From: Pontixanthobacter sp. CEM42
GTDB lineage: Bacteria; Pseudomonadota; Alphaproteobacteria; Sphingomonadales; Sphingomonadaceae
Direction of reading: 5' to 3'
DNA: 64,000 nucleotides
NCBI RefSeq assembly: GCF_017812015.1
Contig: NZ_JADQTN010000001.1
Location: 164,501-228,500, forward strand
Below the pieces are notes generated by a model that saw only the letters and a list, made by a program, of their open reading frames with translations, did no database searches and was not told the DNA's origin. Of the stretch, positions 6,570-38,448 are shown one piece after another. Within the stretch, counting starts at the first letter, position 1. Every line of letters starts with the position of its first letter. Both the position numbers and the translations under genes were made by a program.

Positions 6570-7949
6570 CTAAGCCGGGACACCATACAGATCATGCGCG
6601 TCAGCTTCCTCGACTTCGACGCTGATGATATCGCCAGCGGCCAGCGTTTCGGGCACATTGCGCAGGAAGACATTGCCGTCGATCTCGGGTGCGTCGGCCT
6701 GGCTGCGGCCGGTCGCGCCGATGTCGCCGTCCTCGTCGGGCTCGCCAACTTCGTCCACAATGACGGGTAGCGTTTTGCCGACTTTGGCCGCGAGTTTGGC
6801 GGCGCTGATCCGCTCGGTGACTTCCATTAGGCGGGCATAGCGCTCTTCTTTGATATCCTCTGGCACAGGATCGGGCAGGGCATTGGCCTGTGCGCCTTCG
6901 ACCGGTTCGAAACGGAAGGCTCCGACCCGGTCGAGCTGGGCTTCTTCGAGCCAGTCGATCAGATATTTGAAGTCATCCTCGGTCTCTCCGGGGAAGCCGA
7001 CGACGAAGCTGCTGCGCACTGCGATGTCAGGGCAGACGGTGCGCCAGTTCTTGAGCCGTTCGAGGACCTTCGCCTCATTCGCAGGGCGCTTCATGCGTTT
7101 GAGGACCGCGGGGCTGGCGTGCTGGAACGGGATGTCGAGATAGGGCGTCAGCAGTTCCTCCGCCATCAGCGGGATCACCGCATCGACGTGTGGGTAGGGG
7201 TAGACATAGTGCAGCCGGACCCATGGGGGAACTCCGTCGCCGATATCCAACTGCCCAAGCTCGCGGGCCATATCGGTCATATGCGCGCGGACGGGGTGGC
7301 CCTTCCAATCGCGCTCTTCATGGCGGGTATCGACGCCGTAGGCAGAGGTGTCCTGGCTGATGACGAGCAGTTCGCGCGTCCCGGCAGCGACCAATTTTTC
7401 GGCCTCGCGCAGAACCGCATCGATCCGGCGGCTGGCGAGCTTTCCGCGCAGGTCGGGAATGATGCAGAAGGAGCAGGAGTGATTGCAGCCTTCGGAGATC
7501 TTGAGATAGCTGTAATGGCGCGGGGTAAGCTTGATATCCGGTTGGGGTATCAAATCTACGAATGGTCCCTGCGATGGCGGTGCGTGGGTGTGCACGGCCT
7601 CGACCACTTGCTCATATTGATGTGCGCCAGTTACAGCGAGGACTTGCGGATGCGCGGCGCGGATTGCGTCGGCTTCTTCGCCCATGCAGCCGGTCACAAT
7701 CACCCGGCCATTCTCGGCTATGGCTTCGCCAATGGCTTGGAGGCTTTCCTCCTTGGCGCTGTCGAGAAAGCCGCAGGTGTTGACCAGCACGACGTCAGCG
7801 CCGGCATAATCGGGCGACATCGCATAACCGTCTGCCCGCAGGCGCGTGAGGATGCGTTCGGAATCGACCAAGGCCTTCGGGCAGCCGAGGGAAACCATGC
7901 CAACTTTCTTGGCGTCGGCCAGCGTCTTGGGAAGAGTCGTGGTGTTCAT
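6570..7949 (-). CDS. rimO: Ribosomal protein S12 methylthiotransferase RimO
   Basis: Radical-SAM enzyme that beta-methylthiolates an aspartate of ribosomal protein S12. The 459-residue protein has the three cysteines of the N-terminal MTTase domain (C23 in [12 protein letters not shown]59 in VNTCGF, C88 in VTGCMG), the radical-SAM triad C155/C159/C162 in [13 protein letters not shown], and a C-terminal TRAM-like region. The CPKALVDSE segment and the RGKLASR run distinguish RimO from MiaB. It is monocistronic in appearance and convergent with the TPR gene. Confidence 0.95.
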
Positions 7950-8026
7950 GATGGCCGCGCCCCTACACCCGAAAGCGTCTTTGCGCTATACCGCGCTGGT
8001 TGGGTCGCACCATCTGGGAGGAATTG

Positions 8027-8437
8027 ATGAACTTATTCGATGTGAACTGGCTGGCGATTGTGCTTGCTGCTGCGTGCGGATTTATTGTTGGCGGCATTTG
8101 GTACGGGCCGGTAATGGGCAAGAAGTGGATGGGCGCTGTTGGCCTGACTGAAGACCAGATAAAAGAAGGCAATATGGGCCTGATTTATGGCGGCGCTTTT
8201 GCGTTTTCACTGCTTGCAAGCTGGACGTTAGCGCATACTTTTGCGAGCTATGCCACTGACCTGTCTGTGGCCGTAAAAGTCATGACGGCATTTGGTGTAG
8301 CGATCGGCTTCATCATTCCGGCGTTGGGGACCAATTACCTGTTCTCGCAGAAGGGCAAGACCTTGTTCTTCATCGATGCAGGATATTGGATGCTGTTCTA
8401 CATCGCGATGGGGCTGGTTCACGCCTATATGCCGTAA
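8027..8437 (+). CDS. DUF1761-family membrane protein
   Basis: A 136-residue polytopic membrane protein with four hydrophobic segments and the GGIWYGPVMGKKWM loop characteristic of the DUF1761 family. I chose the ATG at 8027 because GGGAGGAA lies just upstream. An in-frame TTG at 8000 would place that Shine-Dalgarno sequence inside the coding region. Function is unknown for the family. It is divergent to rimO and convergent with the potassium channel gene. Confidence 0.85.
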   Translation: MNLFDVNWLAIVLAAACGFIVGGIWYGPVMGKKWMGAVGLTEDQIKEGNMGLIYGGAFAFSLLASWTLAHTFASYATDLSVAVKVMTAFGVAIGFIIPALGTNYLFSQKGKTLFFIDAGYWMLFYIAMGLVHAYMP

Positions 8438-8467
8438 GATGCGGTGAGCTCTGGGGAAGGGCGCGGT

Positions 8468-9568
8468 TTAGCTGTGGCCGTTATGGCCGTCGCCGCGCTC
8501 TTCGCCATTTTCGGTCGGGACGATTTCAACTACGATATCGCCCGGCTGAAGATCCTGGCACTCGTCTTCCCAGAAGCCGAGGACTTTACCGCCGCGATAG
8601 ACCCGCAGCCCGCGACCGCCAGTTCTGAGTTCTGTGATTGCACAGCCGCATTCTTCGGCAGTAATCTCGCGTTCGACTAACTGCACGCGTCCGGTGACCG
8701 AGGCAAGGTCGGCGAGATAGTCGGCGATATGCGCGCCTTTCGCTGAACCCGCCAACAGTAAGCCGGTGAAGCGCACCGGATTGATTACATTGTTGGCACC
8801 GGCTTGGCGGGCGAGGGATTCGTTGTCGTCCGCACGGACTACCACGCTAATCGGCACATCGGGCGCCAAAGCGCGCACTGTCAATGTAATCAGGATCGAG
8901 GTGTCATCGCGCCCTGCGGAAACCAGCACATTTTGTGCTTCGGTAATCCGGACGGCTTTGAGTGTCTGATCGCGTGTTGCGTCGGCAGCCATGATGTTGC
9001 AGCCCAGCTTTTCAGCTTCGGCGAGACGATCCTCGCTCGGATCAATGACCACGATATTGCTGCCGTCCATCCCGCGTTCGATCAACTCATTGACCGATTC
9101 CGAGCCGGACACGCCATAGCCCAAGACTACGATGTGGTTGGACAGCTTCTCTTGAATGCGTTTCATGCGAAACTTCTCCCAGCTGCGCTTCATAATGAAA
9201 TTGTAGGCGGTGCCCACGAAGATAAAAAATACGGCGAACCGGATCGGCGTCACAATGACCGCCTCTACCATCCGCGCCCGGTCCGTTACCGGCACAATGT
9301 CGCCGAAACCGGTAGTGGTGACCGAAATCAGGGTGAAATAGATGACATCGGTGAAGCTGACTTCGCTATCGAGATTGTCGACCAAACCGCCGCGATCCCA
9401 CCAATGGATCATGACTACGATTGCGAGCAGGAAGATCGCGAGCCCGAGCCGTATGCCCAGATCACCCCATACCGGCACGCGCGACGCGCGCCGTAGCGGC
9501 TGAAACTTCGGCCCGCGCATTCGGCGCCTGGATTTCGGAGTTCCAATACGGTCGATTTTATCGCTCAT
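8468..9568 (-). CDS. Potassium channel with RCK/TrkA domain
   Basis: A 366-residue inner-membrane ion channel. It has two transmembrane helices (about 39-56 and 103-125) flanking a pore loop with TVTTTGFGD, a K+ selectivity-filter variant (GFGD for GYGD). A Rossmann-type RCK domain beginning VVLGYGVSGSES near residue 147 and a TrkA-C-like tail (about 285-350) follow. The domain order matches bacterial MthK/Kch-type ligand-gated channels. It ends divergently from nothing and starts 6 bp downstream of the LysM/M23 gene on the same strand, so it may be a distal part of the serS-surE run. Confidence 0.88.
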   Translation of the reverse strand: MSDKIDRIGTPKSRRRMRGPKFQPLRRASRVPVWGDLGIRLGLAIFLLAIVVMIHWWDRGGLVDNLDSEVSFTDVIYFTLISVTTTGFGDIVPVTDRARMVEAVIVTPIRFAVFFIFVGTAYNFIMKRSWEKFRMKRIQEKLSNHIVVLGYGVSGSESVNELIERGMDGSNIVVIDPSEDRLAEAEKLGCNIMAADATRDQTLKAVRITEAQNVLVSAGRDDTSILITLTVRALAPDVPISVVVRADDNESLARQAGANNVINPVRFTGLLLAGSAKGAHIADYLADLASVTGRVQLVEREITAEECGCAITELRTGGRGLRVYRGGKVLGFWEDECQDLQPGDIVVEIVPTENGEERGDGHNGHS

Positions 9569-22133: not shown

Positions 22134-23315
22134 TTAGCGGGTAACCAAGCAATCCTGTCCGCTACGCTTTAGCGTATTGCACGCTGTTTGCGCGCTAGAC
22201 CGGCTCGGATAGCCGCCAACTTGCAGCTTCACTACGCGGCCGGCGGGAACAACGAACTTCTTCTTGCCCGACAGAACCGCCTTGCCCGACAGGCGCGACC
22301 AGAGACGGTCGGCATTGCTGCGCACACCGAATGCACCGAGCTGAACCCGCCATGGGCCGCTTGCGCTCGCTGAATTTGTAGCAACGCGGCGCGGGGCTGG
22401 TGTGGCCACACGCGGTGCAGGTGGCTTCGGTTTAGGAGCAACTTGCGCCGTTCGTACCGGAGTGGTTCGTGCCGGTGCGGCCTGTGTAGGTACTACGAAG
22501 TCAGCGCCCGCGCGGGCGGGGCTTTCGGTGCCAGTCACACGCGCTGCCTCGGCTACGGCAGTTTGTGCCGCAGCGACTGACGGCGGAACTTTCATTGTCT
22601 GGATCGGCTGCGGAATGCGCGTTACCGAGCTGGGTAGCGGTGAATGCGCAGGCGCGCTCGCTTGCCTGGTCGGCGTCGCAGCAGTGGCCGGTTTGACCGT
22701 CACGCCCAATTCGTCCGAAGCTATCTGCTGCGCCAACTTAGAGCTTGCGTCACGCTGTAGCTTTTGCGCCAGTACCTGTGCTTCCTGACGCTGGGTTAGC
22801 GGAATAAAATCATCCATTTGCGTGATCGCAGGTTTGGCTTGCGCAAATCCCGCAGAGTTCGACAGGGTCATCAGCGCATAGGCGCGTACCCAATCCTTAC
22901 CCACCAGATCGCCATTGAAGTGCCCGATACCGAGCAAATATTGCGCGCGCGGATTACCGCGCTCAGCAGCTTTGATGATGTAAGGCATCGCCTCTTCACG
23001 GCGGCCGCTTTGGAACAGCAGCAGGCCGTATGTGTCGGTTGCTTTGATATGCCCCTGCGCCGCAGCTTTGGCGATCAGGATTTCCGCCTGCTTCGAGTTT
23101 TGCTCGACGCCGCGGCCCAGGCGGTAAGCCTGCGCCATGTTGAACTGCGCATCGGCATTGCCCTTCGCGGCCAGGTCACGCCATTCACGCACCGCGGTTT
23201 GATAGTCGCCGCGGTTCCATGCTTCATATCCAGCATTAAGCTCGGCCACGGCAGGGGCGGCGACTGCCAGTGTCGCAGCGACTGCGAGGAAAGAGAGTGC
23301 ACGTGATCGTATCAT
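22134..23315 (-). CDS. Exported Sel1/TPR-repeat protein with C-terminal SPOR domain
   Basis: A 393-residue protein with a signal peptide (1-24). Sel1-like repeats follow at about 30-160, for example NADAQFNMAQAYRLGRGVEQN and NPRAQYLLGIGHFNGDLVG. A proline/alanine-rich linker (about 215-310) precedes a C-terminal SPOR domain (about 318-393; GPWRVQLGAFGVRSNADRLW). SPOR domains bind denuded septal peptidoglycan, so a division-site role is likely. It faces the ParA gene across 267 bp. The C-terminal CNTLKRSGQDC motif resembles the end of the SPOR lipoprotein at 25050-26426. Confidence 0.87.
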   Translation of the reverse strand: MIRSRALSFLAVAATLAVAAPAVAELNAGYEAWNRGDYQTAVREWRDLAAKGNADAQFNMAQAYRLGRGVEQNSKQAEILIAKAAAQGHIKATDTYGLLLFQSGRREEAMPYIIKAAERGNPRAQYLLGIGHFNGDLVGKDWVRAYALMTLSNSAGFAQAKPAITQMDDFIPLTQRQEAQVLAQKLQRDASSKLAQQIASDELGVTVKPATAATPTRQASAPAHSPLPSSVTRIPQPIQTMKVPPSVAAAQTAVAEAARVTGTESPARAGADFVVPTQAAPARTTPVRTAQVAPKPKPPAPRVATPAPRRVATNSASASGPWRVQLGAFGVRSNADRLWSRLSGKAVLSGKKKFVVPAGRVVKLQVGGYPSRSSAQTACNTLKRSGQDCLVTR

Positions 23316-23491
23316 AGCGTCGAGAGACCCTTATTAAGCTTGGTCTGATTCATTTCGTTACCGTGGCGTCCCTATAGTGAATGAGGCGTTAGCATTTCGT
23401 TTCCATGGTGACTTCCCCGTTAACCATGTCTGCAATCACAGGGAGTTAGCGACTCAAAACCGGTTTCACCCTTCATGCCACGTTCGTCTCG

Positions 23492-23506
23492 TTAACTCAA
23501 AATTAG
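23492..23506. promoter_or_regulatory. CtrA-like half-site pair upstream of parA
   Basis: TTAA-N7-TTAG, seven of eight matches to the CtrA consensus TTAA-N7-TTAA, 77 bp upstream of the ParA start in the divergent spacer. CtrA control is plausible because the window encodes ChpT. A single imperfect match is weak evidence. Confidence 0.35.
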
Positions 23507-23582
23507 GGGTATCCTGCGATCTCAACATCCGAACCGCAATCGTGCGGCTTTGTATGTAAACGGATTCTAGGGGGACCAGGCC

Positions 23583-24299
23583 TTGCGAGTACTGGCATTA
23601 GCATCGCAAAAGGGTGGCTCGGGTAAAACCACTCTTTCAGGACATCTGGCAGTGCAGGCGCAACGCGCCGGTGCAGGTCCAGTGGTTCTCATCGACATCG
23701 ATCCACAAGGGTCGCTGGCCGATTGGTGGAATGAGCGCGAAGCAGAATATCCTGCGTTCGCCCAAACCACAGTCGCACGTCTTGCGAACGATCTTCAGGT
23801 TCTGCGTCAGCAGGGCTTCAAACTGGCCGTGATCGACACGCCGCCAGCAATTACTCTGGCTATCCAATCGGTTATCGGCGTTGCCGAACTGATCGTTGTG
23901 CCAACCCGCCCGAGCCCGCATGATTTGCGCGCTGTGGGTGCTACGGTTGATCTGTGCGAACGCGCAGGCAAGCCGCTGGTGTTCGTGGTCAATGCCGCAA
24001 CGCCGAAAGCCAAAATTACATCGGAAGCTGCCGTCGCGTTGTCACAGCATGGCACCGTTGCTCCGATCACGCTTCACCACCGCACGGACTTCGCTGCCTC
24101 GATGATCGATGGCCGTACCGTGATGGAAGTCGATCCCGAAAGCCGCAGCGCTGCCGAAGTTACCGCGCTGTGGAACTATATGGCGGACCGGCTTGAGAAG
24201 AATTTCCGTCGCACAGTGTTTGCGGCACCGGGTTCGGTATCGCAAGTTGCGCCGGCTCACCGTCCAGGCGGAGGCTTCGGCCGCCGCGTCGCTCAGTAA
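23583..24299 (+). CDS. ParA-family ATPase
   Basis: A 238-residue ParA/MinD-superfamily ATPase with the deviant Walker A KGGSGKTT at residues 10-17, DIDPQGSLADWW (Walker A'-like) and AVIDTPPAIT (Walker B). It starts with TTG at 23583 preceded by AGGGGGA. There is no ParB or parS nearby. The glycine/arginine-rich tail (RPGGGFGRRVAQ) is unusual. The next gene encodes an acidic protein with a basic RHH-like end, a possible partner. The neighbouring SPOR proteins point to a division or septal role rather than chromosome partition. Confidence 0.85.
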   Translation: MRVLALASQKGGSGKTTLSGHLAVQAQRAGAGPVVLIDIDPQGSLADWWNEREAEYPAFAQTTVARLANDLQVLRQQGFKLAVIDTPPAITLAIQSVIGVAELIVVPTRPSPHDLRAVGATVDLCERAGKPLVFVVNAATPKAKITSEAAVALSQHGTVAPITLHHRTDFAASMIDGRTVMEVDPESRSAAEVTALWNYMADRLEKNFRRTVFAAPGSVSQVAPAHRPGGGFGRRVAQ

Positions 24300-24321
24300 T
24301 CGGGGGATCAGGACAAGCGTC

Positions 24322-25011
24322 ATGGACGACACGAACTTCGCCTCTCTCAGCCCGACTTTGCTGGCCCGTAAGGGCGGCGCGAAGCCGGCTATGCGCCCGC
24401 AGCTGGCGCCGCTGACAGCAGGCAGTGCTGCACAAAGCCTGGAAGATCTGGGATGGAACGATATGGGCGCGGATGATGATGCGCCCAAACATGATGCCGA
24501 GGTCGCGCATCTCACGCCTGCTCCGGCTAATCCTGAAGCGGACGCCGAAGCGCAAGAACTGGCTGAACAGGCTGAAGCCGCGCTGACCGACCTTTTGGTT
24601 GAAAAACCCGAAGTTCGCCGCCAGCAAGAAGGTCTCTACGCGACGTTGAGCCCTGCTGAGGCTGGTCCCGGCGAAGGCCATGAATTCGAAGCAGACGATG
24701 AGCCAGAGCAGCTAGAGGATCAGCCCGCTCAGGTCGAACCAGAGCCCGTTCAAGAAGTGGCTCAAGAGGCCGTTCCTGGGGTTGCACCTGCAGAAACGCA
24801 TGTGAAATCATCGCGCAAGCGCCGCTCGGCTTTGGATCGCGGCAAGCGCGCTGCCTTTACTCTGCGTCTCGACGCGGACCGCCATCTGAAGCTTCGTCTC
24901 GCCTGCACGCTGCGCAATCGCAGTGCACAGCAATTGGTGACCGAAGCTCTCGATCATCTGCTCGGCGATATGCCTGATGTGGATTCACTCGCCGCGCAAG
25001 TGCGCACCTAA
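24322..25011 (+). CDS. Acidic protein with C-terminal RHH-like DNA-binding domain
   Basis: A 229-residue protein starting MDDTNFASL at ATG 24322, with CAGGA upstream. The N-terminus has a basic LLARKGGAKPAMRPQ stretch. Residues about 50-150 form a disordered-looking acidic linker rich in E, P, A and Q. The C-terminus (about 160-229) is basic and reads as a ribbon-helix-helix (AAFTLRLDADRHLKLRLA then NRSAQQLVTEAL). By analogy with ParA/RHH partition pairs it may be the DNA- or surface-binding partner of the ParA 22 bp upstream. No specific family is recognised. Confidence 0.65.
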   Translation: MDDTNFASLSPTLLARKGGAKPAMRPQLAPLTAGSAAQSLEDLGWNDMGADDDAPKHDAEVAHLTPAPANPEADAEAQELAEQAEAALTDLLVEKPEVRRQQEGLYATLSPAEAGPGEGHEFEADDEPEQLEDQPAQVEPEPVQEVAQEAVPGVAPAETHVKSSRKRRSALDRGKRAAFTLRLDADRHLKLRLACTLRNRSAQQLVTEALDHLLGDMPDVDSLAAQVRT

Positions 25012-25049
25012 TTTTGACACGAAGACCAAGAGCAAGAGGGAAACAGACA

Positions 25050-26426
25050 ATGCCCAAGATAGCCAAACAGAACCGGGCCATCATGCTGGCCGTTACGACT
25101 GCCCTTGCGACCACCACTCTGGCTGGTTGCGCATCGCAGGCTGCACCGCGCGCTGACTTCTCTGCGCAAAAAGCGCAGAGCGCTCTGGTCAAAGGTAAGA
25201 CAAGCAAAGCGATCGCCCATGCGGAAGAATCCGTATTGGCTGAACCGCGCAATGCGGGTTACCGCGCAATGCTTGGTGCCGTTTATATGGAAGCAGGCCG
25301 TTTCCAGTCGGCAGCGACGAGCTTTAAAGACGCAATGACGCTGGGTGATGATAGCTCACGCACGGCGCTTAGCTATGCCCTTGCGGAAATCGCAGCGGGT
25401 AACAATCCGGCGGCACTTGCGGTTCTGAGTGATCACCGCGATTCGATTGATCCGGCCGATCTTGGTCTGGCATTCTCACTCGCAGGCAATCCAGAGCGCG
25501 GCATCCACGTATTGGGCAACGCCCTGCGTTCGGGCCAGACAACTCCAAAGGTCCGTCAGAACCTTGCATATTCTTACGCGCTCAAAGGTGAGTGGCGTGC
25601 GGCTCGGTTGATGGCGGCAGAAGATGTGCCAGCAGATCAGGTCAGCGACCGGATCGGCGAATGGGCGCAGACTGTTCGCCCGGAACACTTCCAGACACGC
25701 GTTGCGACGCTGCTCGGCGTGCCGTTGGTCGGCGATGCCGGTCAGCCTGCGCAATTGGCGCTATCGAACGCAGTGACCGCAGAGCAACTCGCGGCTGAGG
25801 CAACTGCTCCAGCTCCGGTCCAAGTCGCCGAAGCGGCTCTAGAGGCTCCGCGTTACATTTTGCCACCAATGGGCGGTGAGCTTCCAGCAGTTGGCGATGA
25901 GCCAGCGTCAGAGTTCGCGCCAGCTCCAGCTCCAACACCAGTTGTCGCCGCTGCACCTGCACCTGCAGACGCACCGGAGCAATTCGCTGATGCGTTTGCG
26001 GAGCCGACACCAACCGGTGCAACGCTTGCTGATATCACCAACAGCGCGGTTCGTTTCGTATCGAACCCTGTGGTCCAGAAAATGCCCGCCAGCGTGGCGG
26101 CCAAATCTCATGCTGAATCGCGTCCAGCGGTTCAGGGTGAGCATTTGATCCAGCTCGGTTCGTTCACCAGCGAAGCCGGTGCAAAGCGCGCATGGGGCAT
26201 CTATGCTAAGCGTTATCCGCAGCTGAAAAACTATGACATGGTCATCACCGAAGCGCGCGTGCGCGGTAAGCGCTATTTCCGCGTTTCCGCTGGCGGTTTT
26301 AAGAATGCCAGCGCACGCAGCATGTGTTCGACGGTCAAGGCCAAAGGCCAAGGTTGCATAACTTGGGCGGCAAATGCTCCGCTTCCGGGTGCAGTTGATC
26401 GCGGTGTACGGATGGCCAGTCGCTAA
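25050..26426 (+). CDS. TPR lipoprotein with C-terminal SPOR domain
   Basis: A 458-residue lipoprotein. The start MPKIAKQNR has GAGGGA upstream. A signal sequence ends in the lipobox LAGC. TPR-like helices fill about 30-210, including HAEESVLAEPRNAGYRAMLG. A proline/alanine-rich linker (about 240-320) leads to a SPOR domain at about 360-445 (EHLIQLGSFTSEAGAKRAWG ... RVSAGGF). It is third in the ParA operon, 38 bp after the RHH-like gene. Similar architecture to the divergent Sel1/SPOR protein suggests the two act at the same septal site. Confidence 0.86.
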   Translation: MPKIAKQNRAIMLAVTTALATTTLAGCASQAAPRADFSAQKAQSALVKGKTSKAIAHAEESVLAEPRNAGYRAMLGAVYMEAGRFQSAATSFKDAMTLGDDSSRTALSYALAEIAAGNNPAALAVLSDHRDSIDPADLGLAFSLAGNPERGIHVLGNALRSGQTTPKVRQNLAYSYALKGEWRAARLMAAEDVPADQVSDRIGEWAQTVRPEHFQTRVATLLGVPLVGDAGQPAQLALSNAVTAEQLAAEATAPAPVQVAEAALEAPRYILPPMGGELPAVGDEPASEFAPAPAPTPVVAAAPAPADAPEQFADAFAEPTPTGATLADITNSAVRFVSNPVVQKMPASVAAKSHAESRPAVQGEHLIQLGSFTSEAGAKRAWGIYAKRYPQLKNYDMVITEARVRGKRYFRVSAGGFKNASARSMCSTVKAKGQGCITWAANAPLPGAVDRGVRMASR

Positions 26427-26607: not shown

Positions 26608-26811
26608 GTGTACATCTGCATTTGCAACGCCATCAAAGAAAGCGATTTGCGCCGCGCTGCGTGTGCTGGGGCGAGTGCGAAAGATGGTGATGTAGAGGCA
26701 GTCTATGCAGCGATGGGCAAGCGCCCCAATTGCGGCCAATGCCTCGAAGATGCTCAAGCGATTGTCGATGAAGAGCGCGAAATGGCGCTCATGCCGGCCT
26801 ACGCCGAGTAA
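26608..26811 (+). CDS. bfd: Bacterioferritin-associated ferredoxin
   Basis: Small [2Fe-2S] protein that reduces bacterioferritin to release iron. The 67-residue product (GTG at 26608) carries the cluster ligands C4 and C6 (YICICNAI) and C42 and C45 (NCGQC), as in E. coli Bfd. I prefer the GTG because AAGGAG lies nine bases upstream; the alternative TTG at 26590 would overlap that signal. A Fur box precedes it and a terminator follows, so it is transcribed apart from bfr. Confidence 0.93.
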   Translation: MYICICNAIKESDLRRAACAGASAKDGDVEAVYAAMGKRPNCGQCLEDAQAIVDEEREMALMPAYAE

Positions 26812-26852
26812 ATTCGCGCTCCATTTTCTACTAACGCAAATCACTCGCAAGT

Positions 26853-26873
26853 GGCGGAATTCCGCCGTTTTTT
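26853..26873 (+). terminator. Terminator between bfd and bfr
   Basis: Perfect stem GGCGG/CCGCC with loop AATT (26853-26866) followed by GTTTTTT. It lies 41 bp after the bfd stop. Confidence 0.75.
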
Positions 26874-26957
26874 CGACTTTTCCGCTTGCTAATTCGGCTC
26901 CTCACGGCGCATAGACTGCGCCATAATTCCGATTTGGACCCAAGCAGGAGACGTGCC

Positions 26958-27449
26958 GTGAAGGGCGACGAAAAAGTCATCGATTTTTTGAACAAGGCGC
27001 TTACTAACGAGCTGACCGCGATAAACCAATATTGGTTGCATTACCGCGTCCTTGATGATTGGGGCGTGACCAAGCTAGCTGAATATGAGCGGCACGAATC
27101 AATCGACGAAATGAAGCATGCCGATATGCTTGCGGAACGGGTTCTGTTTCTCAACGGCCTGCCGAACTTTCAGGCGATCCACAATTTGCGCGTCGGCGAA
27201 ACGGTCGAAGAAATCCTCAAGGCGGATCTCGCGGTTGAACATGACGCAATCCCGCTGCTTAAAGATGCTGTGGCCTATTGTGAGAGCGTGCGCGACTTTG
27301 TCAGCCGCGATCTGTTCGCCAGCATCCTTTCCAGCGAGGAAGAGCATGTCGACTTCCTCGAAACCCAGTTCGATATGATCGAACGCATGGGGCTGGAAAA
27401 CTACGTGCAGTTGCAAAGCCAGGCCGCTGGTGAAGGCGGCGAGGGGTAA
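26958..27449 (+). CDS. bfr: Bacterioferritin
   Basis: Heme-containing iron-storage ferritin that assembles as a 24-mer. The 163-residue product starts MKGDEKVIDFLNKAL at GTG 26958, with AGCAGGAG upstream, and keeps the heme-ligand M52 and the ferroxidase residues E18, E51 and H54 in the RHESIDEMKHAD block. An in-frame start at 26886 would add a non-homologous leader. It follows bfd but is separated from it by a terminator. Its stop codon directly abuts that of the convergent acyltransferase. Confidence 0.96.
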   Translation: MKGDEKVIDFLNKALTNELTAINQYWLHYRVLDDWGVTKLAEYERHESIDEMKHADMLAERVLFLNGLPNFQAIHNLRVGETVEEILKADLAVEHDAIPLLKDAVAYCESVRDFVSRDLFASILSSEEEHVDFLETQFDMIERMGLENYVQLQSQAAGEGGEG

Positions 27450-38141: not shown

Positions 38142-38448
38142 GATTTCCAGTCCTCCCTTGCGCCTTTTGCAACTGCTGCAAATCAAACAACAGCGTGCTT
38201 CGACTAGATGAGCATCGAAAGCGACCAACTGCATTGCCAACGCGCTGATCGCGTTAGAGCGAGTTTGACGCGCGGCGAATGGATTAGTTCCAGTGTTTCT
38301 CGTTAGATTTCAATCTGCCCGAACAAAGTTAACGTGATCTTAGCTATCGGCTGCGTAACTCGCCCGTTCATTGAGTTGCGTTGAGCGGCACAGATTGACA
38401 ACGATGACAACAAGCTGGCGCAAAGATGCTGGTTGATCAGGGGGCGTA
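38142..38448. other. Divergent regulatory region (307 bp) of TonB receptor and chemotaxis receptor
   Basis: No gene is visible. It holds the receptor's GGGAGG ribosome-binding site near 38150 and a CtrA-like TTAA-N7-TTAG at 38329-38343 on the side of the chemotaxis gene. An isolated TTGACA at 38394 lacks a good -10 partner. I see nothing else. Confidence 0.4.
38329..38343. promoter_or_regulatory. CtrA-like site upstream of the chemotaxis receptor gene
   Basis: TTAA-N7-TTAG, seven of eight matches to TTAA-N7-TTAA, 106 bp upstream of the start. Chemotaxis genes are common CtrA targets in alphaproteobacteria. This is the second such match in the window. Confidence 0.35.

Follow-up and report, generated by a model that had tools for sequence, protein, structure and literature searches.

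The closest described system to the locus analyzed here was found to be the partition pair of plasmid TP228. In the account of PMC5393062, the ParB (ParG) protein of TP228 has a disordered ParA-binding N-terminus followed by a ribbon-helix-helix (RHH) domain, and its peptide folds into the crevice of the ParA dimer with Arg19 near the active site, possibly as an arginine finger. The locus lies in a 64,000-nucleotide stretch of the genome of Pontixanthobacter sp. CEM42 (contig NZ_JADQTN010000001.1, positions 164,501 to 228,500), hereafter called the window. It contains a small ParA-type ATPase gene and the gene of an RHH protein, placed between two genes of exported proteins with C-terminal SPOR domains. 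The ParA and RHH genes are present or missing together, and they are nested in a pair of SPOR genes that is able to live without them. The SPOR domains are described as binding denuded glycans, which are enriched at the septum (PMC6895207).

The four reading frames proposed in a preliminary description of this DNA were all present. The leftmost gene, on the minus strand (22134..23315), encodes an exported Sel1-repeat protein of 393 amino acids (aa) with SPOR at residues 318-392 (Sel1-SPOR). The three others are on the plus strand and encode the 238-aa ParA (23583..24299), the 229-aa RHH protein (24322..25011), composed of a basic N-terminal motif, a disordered acidic linker and the C-terminal RHH, and a 458-aa TPR lipoprotein with a C-terminal SPOR domain (TPR-SPOR; 25050..26426, scanned from 25014, lipobox at Cys27). 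Pfam recognised the domains named in the preliminary description, SPOR in both outer genes (59.1 and 35.1 bits, cut-off 21) and Sel1 in the left one, and its ParA/MinD-type ATPase models matched 23583-24299. A SPOR search of the whole genome gave five places, two of which were these outer genes. Only 22 bases separate ParA from RHH and 38 bases RHH from TPR-SPOR, a spacing that suggests a single operon on the plus strand.

The conservation of the quartet was assessed in 80 named loci, the best 80 of at least 373 confirmed relatives in a genome-collection scan, which included Parerythrobacter, Qipengyuania, Erythrobacter, Novosphingobium, Sphingobium, Sphingopyxis and Sphingomonas. The full quartet with both SPOR domains was found in 74 of them; the preliminary description had left it to be checked whether the genes stay together in Sphingomonadales, and they do. 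All four genes were also found in L138, L147 and L152, where one SPOR domain was undetected near a contig end. TPR-SPOR was missing from L202 (contig end) and Sel1-SPOR from L149, each of these genes being detected in 79 of the 80 loci. Among 26 loci taken from 26 matching relatives, a single-sequence search found all four genes in 22, and a profile search added L052 and L056; across the 26 loci the block was preserved while its orientation relative to pyrBC, the DUF418 gene and the bacterioferritin gene (Bfr) changed. The RHH protein was matched in 27 of 40 genomes (the own genome and relatives). In other families of the order, the original arrangement occurred in 9 of 12 new loci; the Sel1-SPOR gene was missing from L263 and relocated in L264-L265. 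The four-gene arrangement is conserved beyond chance. Since the flanking genes were also fairly stable (within the 5-kb flanks of the 80 named loci, pyrC was counted 66 times, pyrB 64, DUF418 33 and Bfr 23), adjacency alone is not the strongest argument.

An order-wide search of genomes at least 90% complete matched ParA in 175 of 197 Sphingomonadales genomes (E 1e-55), with one match each in the rows listed. Thirteen same-family genomes without a ParA of the window type were inspected, namely ten without a match in that search and three checked separately (G010, G015 and G020, the last with only a 91-bit relative). The RHH protein was matched in 1 of these 13 genomes (G015, by a fragment with an internal stop) and TPR-SPOR in 6. 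Sel1-SPOR and TPR-SPOR stood directly back to back in four of the five fetched ParA-less loci (L291-L294), and TPR-SPOR alone was seen in the fifth (L295). The joint absence of ParA and RHH with the SPOR genes persisting defines ParA-RHH as a removable cassette nested in the SPOR gene pair. A single indivisible four-gene machine was ruled out by the cassette-free loci, and the one functional unit of four genes suggested in the preliminary description was abandoned for the same reason.

Two unusual loci were also recorded. In the G015 locus L047 (7762-8574) ParA was absent and the two SPOR genes flanked only the C-terminal remnant of an RHH gene, with one TGA reported; this is probably a decaying cassette. 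In L051 (G014, 7499-8716) ParA and the RHH region shared one open frame and the LLARKG motif described below was absent; the frame appears to be a fusion or a frameshift, the genome being 86% complete and 7% contaminated.

The ATPase was compared with proteins of solved structure. The ParA profile matched TP228 ParA/ParF first (5u1g and 4dzz, E 4.8e-23 and 6.9e-23); the next match, the 'segregation protein' 1wcv, followed at E 1.4e-11, and McdA and MipZ were also far behind. The protein has no N-terminal helix-turn-helix (HTH), begins directly with the Walker A region and has near-invariant ATPase residues. It scored 163.7 bits with the ParA_partition model, slightly below the cut-off of 180. 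The Pfam MipZ scores were 31.4 and 20.9 bits over ~52 residues, which is still above the cut-off of 20.7; the true MipZ gene elsewhere in the genome reached 379 bits over the full model. A canonical ParB (192 bits) adjoins another ParA at C2:441590-443079. As the genome has canonical parAB and a full MipZ, the window ParA is an extra one, and MipZ or the chromosomal ParA was rejected as its identity. A second MipZ-family gene (222 bits) was noted at C1:515349-516086, which makes two MipZ-like genes in one genome. An AlphaFold2 model of ParA was of low confidence, with a mean predicted local distance difference test (pLDDT) of 46 from 27 alignment rows, all at least 83% identical to the window protein.

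ParA is by far the most conserved of the four genes. The median identities to the window in the 80 named loci, calculated as the best BLAST segment over the full query length, were 88% for ParA, 38% for RHH, 35% for Sel1-SPOR and 36% for TPR-SPOR. The C-terminal tail of ParA, EKNFRRTVF...GGFGRR (24195-24296), was nearly invariant in Sphingomonadales. An FG[RKAQ]-like tail was found by a regular expression in 35 of 44 ParA rows with an RHH partner and in 0 of 7 rows with the SPOR partner described below. The TTG start at 23583 aligns with TTG, GTG or ATG starts of the relatives, most of which follow a GGGGG-rich ribosome site; the Shine-Dalgarno-like AGGGGGA of the window (23569..23575, plus strand) is similar in most same-family relatives.

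The start of the RHH protein was set at ATG 24322 and not at 24193, where a 272-aa open reading frame (ORF) begins, and the proteins of relatives start at the same place. AlphaFold2 was confident over residues 177-228 (24850..25005, plus strand) and poor over most of the rest. The confident part consisted of a short extended segment and helices 185-198, 202-215 and 218-228, the block having a pLDDT of ~87-96. Judged by their titles, most VIA-align matches to residues 175-227 were DNA-binding domains of the RHH type (PutA, Arc, omega, NikR, AmrZ, antitoxins, pCXC100 ParB and ParG), with a best Z of 4.7, middling for this tool; McdB, AcrIF25, StnY and one designed peptide were the matches outside recognised RHH. 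The RHH-like tail named in the preliminary description, the folding of which had been left to be checked, was thus predicted as RHH by both the model and the structure searches. ParG came first in a search of 177,635 PDB sequences with the RHH-protein profile (E 0.25; the next two, at 0.27, were an RHH and a ribosomal protein), and it also ranked first in Foldseek (probability 0.90, E 0.62), where the model had no match under 0.001. The family matches were weak (Pfam Antitox_RHH, E 0.068; PHROG Arc-like repressor, E 0.006), and none was obtained against NCBIfam. Each figure for the RHH protein is weak alone; however, the ParA and RHH searches independently reached the same partition pair, which argues for a pair of the ParF-ParG kind. 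The RHH protein is therefore predicted to be the ParB-equivalent of the window ParA. The preliminary description had spoken of a ParA without ParB: no ParB-family gene was present at the locus, but the wording is misleading, and an orphan ParA was rejected in favor of a ParA with its likely partner in the next gene.

The partner proteins were found to share more than the RHH. In alignments of 25 and 65 proteins, an invariant LLARKG.A.P core lay close to the N-terminus. A DLGWNDMG block, present in the family, and a linker of low conservation preceded the RHH. In the window, the motif LSPTLLARKGGAKPAMR occupies residues 9-25 (24346..24396, plus strand), within the low-confidence region of the AlphaFold2 model, and is proposed to be a ParA-binding, ATPase-activating peptide. 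The motif was searched in 43 loci (41 non-Sphingomonadales and two Sphingomonadales loci). A regular expression hit 28 of 4,933 reading frames, and each of the 28 was the frame that immediately follows ParA on its strand. A profile of the motif, built from Sphingomonadales RHH proteins alone, found 30 ORFs in 30 of the 43 loci, all next after ParA, including 7 of 7 partners that carry SPOR. Many partners outside the family of the window had a CxC motif (CPCLA, CACLN, CHCIRD) just after the RHH, among them L087, L088, L090-L093, L100, L105, L113 and L264; it was not seen in the same-family rows read. This ending possibly binds metal.

In a phylum draw of 397 genomes, 29 matched ParA at E 1e-50, all in the same class. 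The 41 non-Sphingomonadales loci came from a search of that class. The class-wide scores (289 genomes) were either above 259 or below 175 bits, save one broken copy at 204; outside Sphingomonadales 43 places lay above this gap, of which 41 were fetched. The downstream partner was RHH by profile in 23 loci, SPOR in 7 and matched by the whole-partner profile only in 7, several of the latter being RHH by eye. Four loci gave no partner match: L111, L116 and L118 at contig ends, and L126, which has an RHH by eye and appears to be a Commensalibacter plasmid. The SPOR partners (L094, L103, L109, L112, L117, L119 and L123) scored 30.4-55.4 bits with Pfam SPOR and contained one strong hydrophobic stretch with a mean Kyte-Doolittle (KD) value of 1.96-2.71, whereas none of the 27 other partners measured exceeded 1.31. 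The same ParA subfamily thus appears with the same N-terminal motif on a partner with either an RHH or a predicted membrane helix and SPOR. The ParA trees are compatible with both a single and a multiple origin of the SPOR form. The SPOR-bearing partner is the best evidence supporting a link to the division site.

The region upstream of ParA was also aligned. A CtrA-like box, TTAA-N7-TTAG (23492..23506, plus strand), was recognized from the upstream alignment and a pattern count, its half-sites being kept and its spacer variable. Such a box occurred within 250 bp of ParA in 62 of the 80 named loci and in 1 of 2,935 windows from the same loci, which were mostly coding and so not a matched control. 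The CtrA consensus is given as TTAA-N7-TTAA, similar to the window box (PMC11264516), and Sphingomonadales are said to conserve CckA-ChpT-CtrA (PMC2877005). Control of ParA by CtrA is possible, in one family only. A genome-wide search for TTAAC-N6-TTAG was only suggestive. One site stood before ParA, one before a GGDEF-EAL gene following cheR and one within a DUF1491 gene that precedes the gene of a cell wall hydrolase, while four others lay at different genes or at none that could be assigned. The remaining site, also in the window (38329-38343), was noted ~105 bases before a methyl-accepting chemotaxis protein (MCP) gene, recognized from the HAMP and the start of MCPsignal in the 465 residues read. 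A second conserved block, TATAGTGAA-n5-CGTTAG-n6-GTTTC in the window (23373..23403), lies upstream of Sel1-SPOR in the alignment of the window and 13 same-family loci. A sigma-70 scan found no promoter against 1.4 expected. A stem-loop, CCGCA-N4-TGCGG (23534-23547), before the ribosome site of ParA was similar in several same-family rows; it was not recovered by single-sequence folding in the Sphingomonas, Sphingopyxis and Sphingorhabdus rows and was dropped.

Lipobox occurrence bears on the TPR-SPOR protein. The window protein, starting at ATG 25050, has the lipobox LAGC, and a simple script found a lipobox in just 51 of 79 named relatives, so the family is probably exported rather than always a lipoprotein; the earlier term 'SPOR lipoprotein' suits the window protein and only part of its relatives. 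Export features (signal peptide, lipobox) were visible in the sequences of the SPOR proteins, and a septal localisation is predicted. Directly downstream of the quartet, at 26608-27449, a ferritin-like gene was observed together with a small ORF of ferredoxin type, which looks Bfd-like by eye.

We proposed, with confidence about evenly balanced, that the cassette is a chromosomal two-gene ParF-ParG (type Ib) positioning module which organises a chromosome region in step with division. ParA-ATP would coat the nucleoid, and the partner would hold DNA through its C-terminal RHH, the bound DNA being the cargo. The LLARKGxAxPA peptide of the partner would touch ParA and make it hydrolyse ATP and let go; in this way the complex of partner and DNA would be moved or held on the nucleoid. 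Placed between two divergent genes of exported, presumably septal SPOR proteins, and possibly activated by CtrA in this family, the cassette would act as the cell divides. In some other alphaproteobacteria this ParA would work on a partner with a membrane helix and SPOR instead of the RHH, a putative anchor to the septal wall. The septal tie is drawn from the SPOR genes on both sides and from the exchange of RHH for SPOR behind this motif in other lineages; the possible cell-cycle promoter is a weaker ground. The locus lies in a 2.1-Mb contig with housekeeping neighbours and not on a plasmid, as type Ib systems do; given this chromosomal setting, the module would work like, but is not classed as, a plasmid partition system.

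Several observations weighed against this proposal. The SPOR genes persist without the cassette, so no obligate machine is involved, and pyrB and pyrC are likewise frequent neighbours. In L166 (Novosphingobium organovorum) ParA is kept and followed directly by TPR-SPOR, with no RHH gene between. The Foldseek and profile links to ParG were individually not significant, and the third PDB match was the ribosomal protein. No shared centromere-like repeat array was found by a repeat search in the intergenic regions of three genomes. The CtrA-like box was absent from 18 of the 80 named loci, from 14 of 16 loci in the remaining families of Sphingomonadales and from 34 of 36 in other orders, and the 8 genome-wide TTAAC-N6-TTAG sites were fewer than those of the reversed control pattern (26). 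The SPOR partner occurred in just 7 of the 41 non-Sphingomonadales loci, and 5 of the 7 genomes with it (G048, G162, G182, G247 and G266) also carry the RHH form. Finally, both SPOR proteins are predicted to be exported and so cannot touch the cytoplasmic ParA or RHH proteins directly; a physical septal link in Sphingomonadales is one that we infer.

The positioning at the envelope or division site, suggested in the preliminary description, was partly supported: the SPOR-bearing ParA partner of some other alphaproteobacteria and the presence of canonical parAB and MipZ elsewhere in the genome speak for it. A broader version of the proposed module, which we put forward tentatively and with more doubt than belief, is that the ParA subfamily and its portable peptide LLARKGxAxPA form a chromosome-to-envelope coupling device spread through Alphaproteobacteria. 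The ParA-coated nucleoid would be held either by a DNA-binding RHH partner encoded amid SPOR genes or directly by a membrane SPOR protein on septal peptidoglycan, with one ATPase cycle linking nucleoid position to the septal wall.

Alternatively, the RHH protein might be a local repressor or activator of the divergent SPOR promoters, tuned by ParA and affecting division via SPOR dosage only. Plasmid ParA/RHH pairs autoregulate, and the cassette is located between both promoters it could control, with two conserved blocks within the 267-bp intergenic region; moreover, the Arc-like repressor and Antitox_RHH matches were the sole, weak, family matches of the RHH protein. However, a ParA whose ATPase residues are near-invariant is more than a plain repressor needs. 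In the RHH-type loci outside Sphingomonadales the SPOR profile found no SPOR gene standing apart up to 6 kb from ParA (some contigs being short), and the exchange of the partner for a membrane SPOR protein is hard to reconcile with a DNA regulator. This explanation was considered unlikely.

It would be equally unlikely, in our estimate, that the locus is a domesticated plasmid partition cassette which segregates a chromosome region, its SPOR neighbours being old synteny with no functional tie. Relatives of the cassette do occur on plasmids. The window ParA matched 581 plasmid records at E 1e-20, with Comamonas (66.5%) and Deefgea (63.6%) as the best, and in nine of the eleven plasmid regions read the annotated next gene encoded a protein of 80-114 aa that carries a related motif (e.g. 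LSAGLIAKKGQAVPA), while in L271 and L272 an unannotated frame encoded the motif protein. The whole-partner profile matched all 11 plasmid partners, at E 1e-14 to 0.003 within this set of 11. Of these, 5 were matched by the RHH profile as well, at E 0.001 or below, and the E. coli plasmid partner passed Pfam RHH_10. Several of these cassettes adjoin rep, resolvase or recombinase genes. The relatives of the ParA-RHH cassette are thus, by these matches, plasmid partition cassettes. Such a ParA with its short partner is found on plasmids of Comamonas, Deefgea, Thiothrix, Xanthomonas, E. coli and others, and as plasmids of several proteobacterial classes share the two-gene layout, the contrast 'rather than plasmid partition' drawn in the preliminary description was too sharp. 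The long-lived pyrBC neighbourhood and the survival of the SPOR genes without the cassette also agree with domestication without a SPOR tie. On the other side, in other lineages this ParA subfamily has a partner with a SPOR domain, a domain-swap link of the ParA motif to SPOR; the quartet survives inversions relative to pyrBC, and the chromosome already has parAB. The Sphingomonadales ParAs form one clade (100/99 support) apart from the plasmid ParAs read, which is consistent with one old acquisition followed by vertical descent in the order.

A role like that of VirC1/VirC2, in which a relaxosome or other DNA substrate is docked to a secretion channel at the pole, is very improbable: ParA passes the Pfam VirC1 cut-off weakly (26.9 against 24 bits) and VirC2 is an RHH protein, but ParA_partition and ParF are better models, and the 12 mapped neighbour genes, beyond which the genome was not searched for them, included no relaxase or secretion gene. 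A defence system was rejected, as PADLOC gave no match at 0.001.

The proposed positioning module concerns a ParA that is widely kept in the widespread Sphingomonadales, yet to which no role was assigned in the open-access literature searched. If ParA does recognise its partner by this peptide, a single motif marks a family whose cargo has been swapped between DNA and the septal wall. The coordination of nucleoid position with septal wall synthesis would then become testable by two genes, and the locus would illustrate how a partition-type cassette can become a widely retained part of the chromosome.

In comparison with known systems, the window pair resembles TP228 ParF-ParG in its order, a small ParA without N-terminal HTH and then a protein with a disordered N-terminus and C-terminal RHH, and TP228 gave the best solved-structure matches for both proteins. 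It differs in being chromosomal, present in most genomes of the order and nested between SPOR genes. The window partner, at 229 aa, has three times the length of the 76-aa ParG and contains an acidic linker as well as additional conserved blocks, and neither recognised centromere repeats in three intergenic regions nor plasmid genes among the mapped neighbours were found. The plasmid cassettes, such as those of Comamonas pZM22-2 and Xanthomonas pXCV19, have a ParA of the same subfamily, with 56-66% identity in the best rows, and their partners share a related motif, but they reside on plasmids, their partners are of 80-114 aa and their ParAs fall outside the Sphingomonadales clade. Unlike in chromosomal parABS, no ParB (HTH/CTPase) gene stands beside the window ParA. 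MipZ, MinD, PomZ and McdA are ParA family ATPases that position non-plasmid cargo; their partners are of a different type, and the MipZ of this genome is another gene. The alternative partner of other alphaproteobacteria is similar to FtsN-type bitopic SPOR proteins in its long N-terminus, one hydrophobic stretch and C-terminal SPOR, whereas its N-terminus bears the ParA-partner motif and its gene follows parA.

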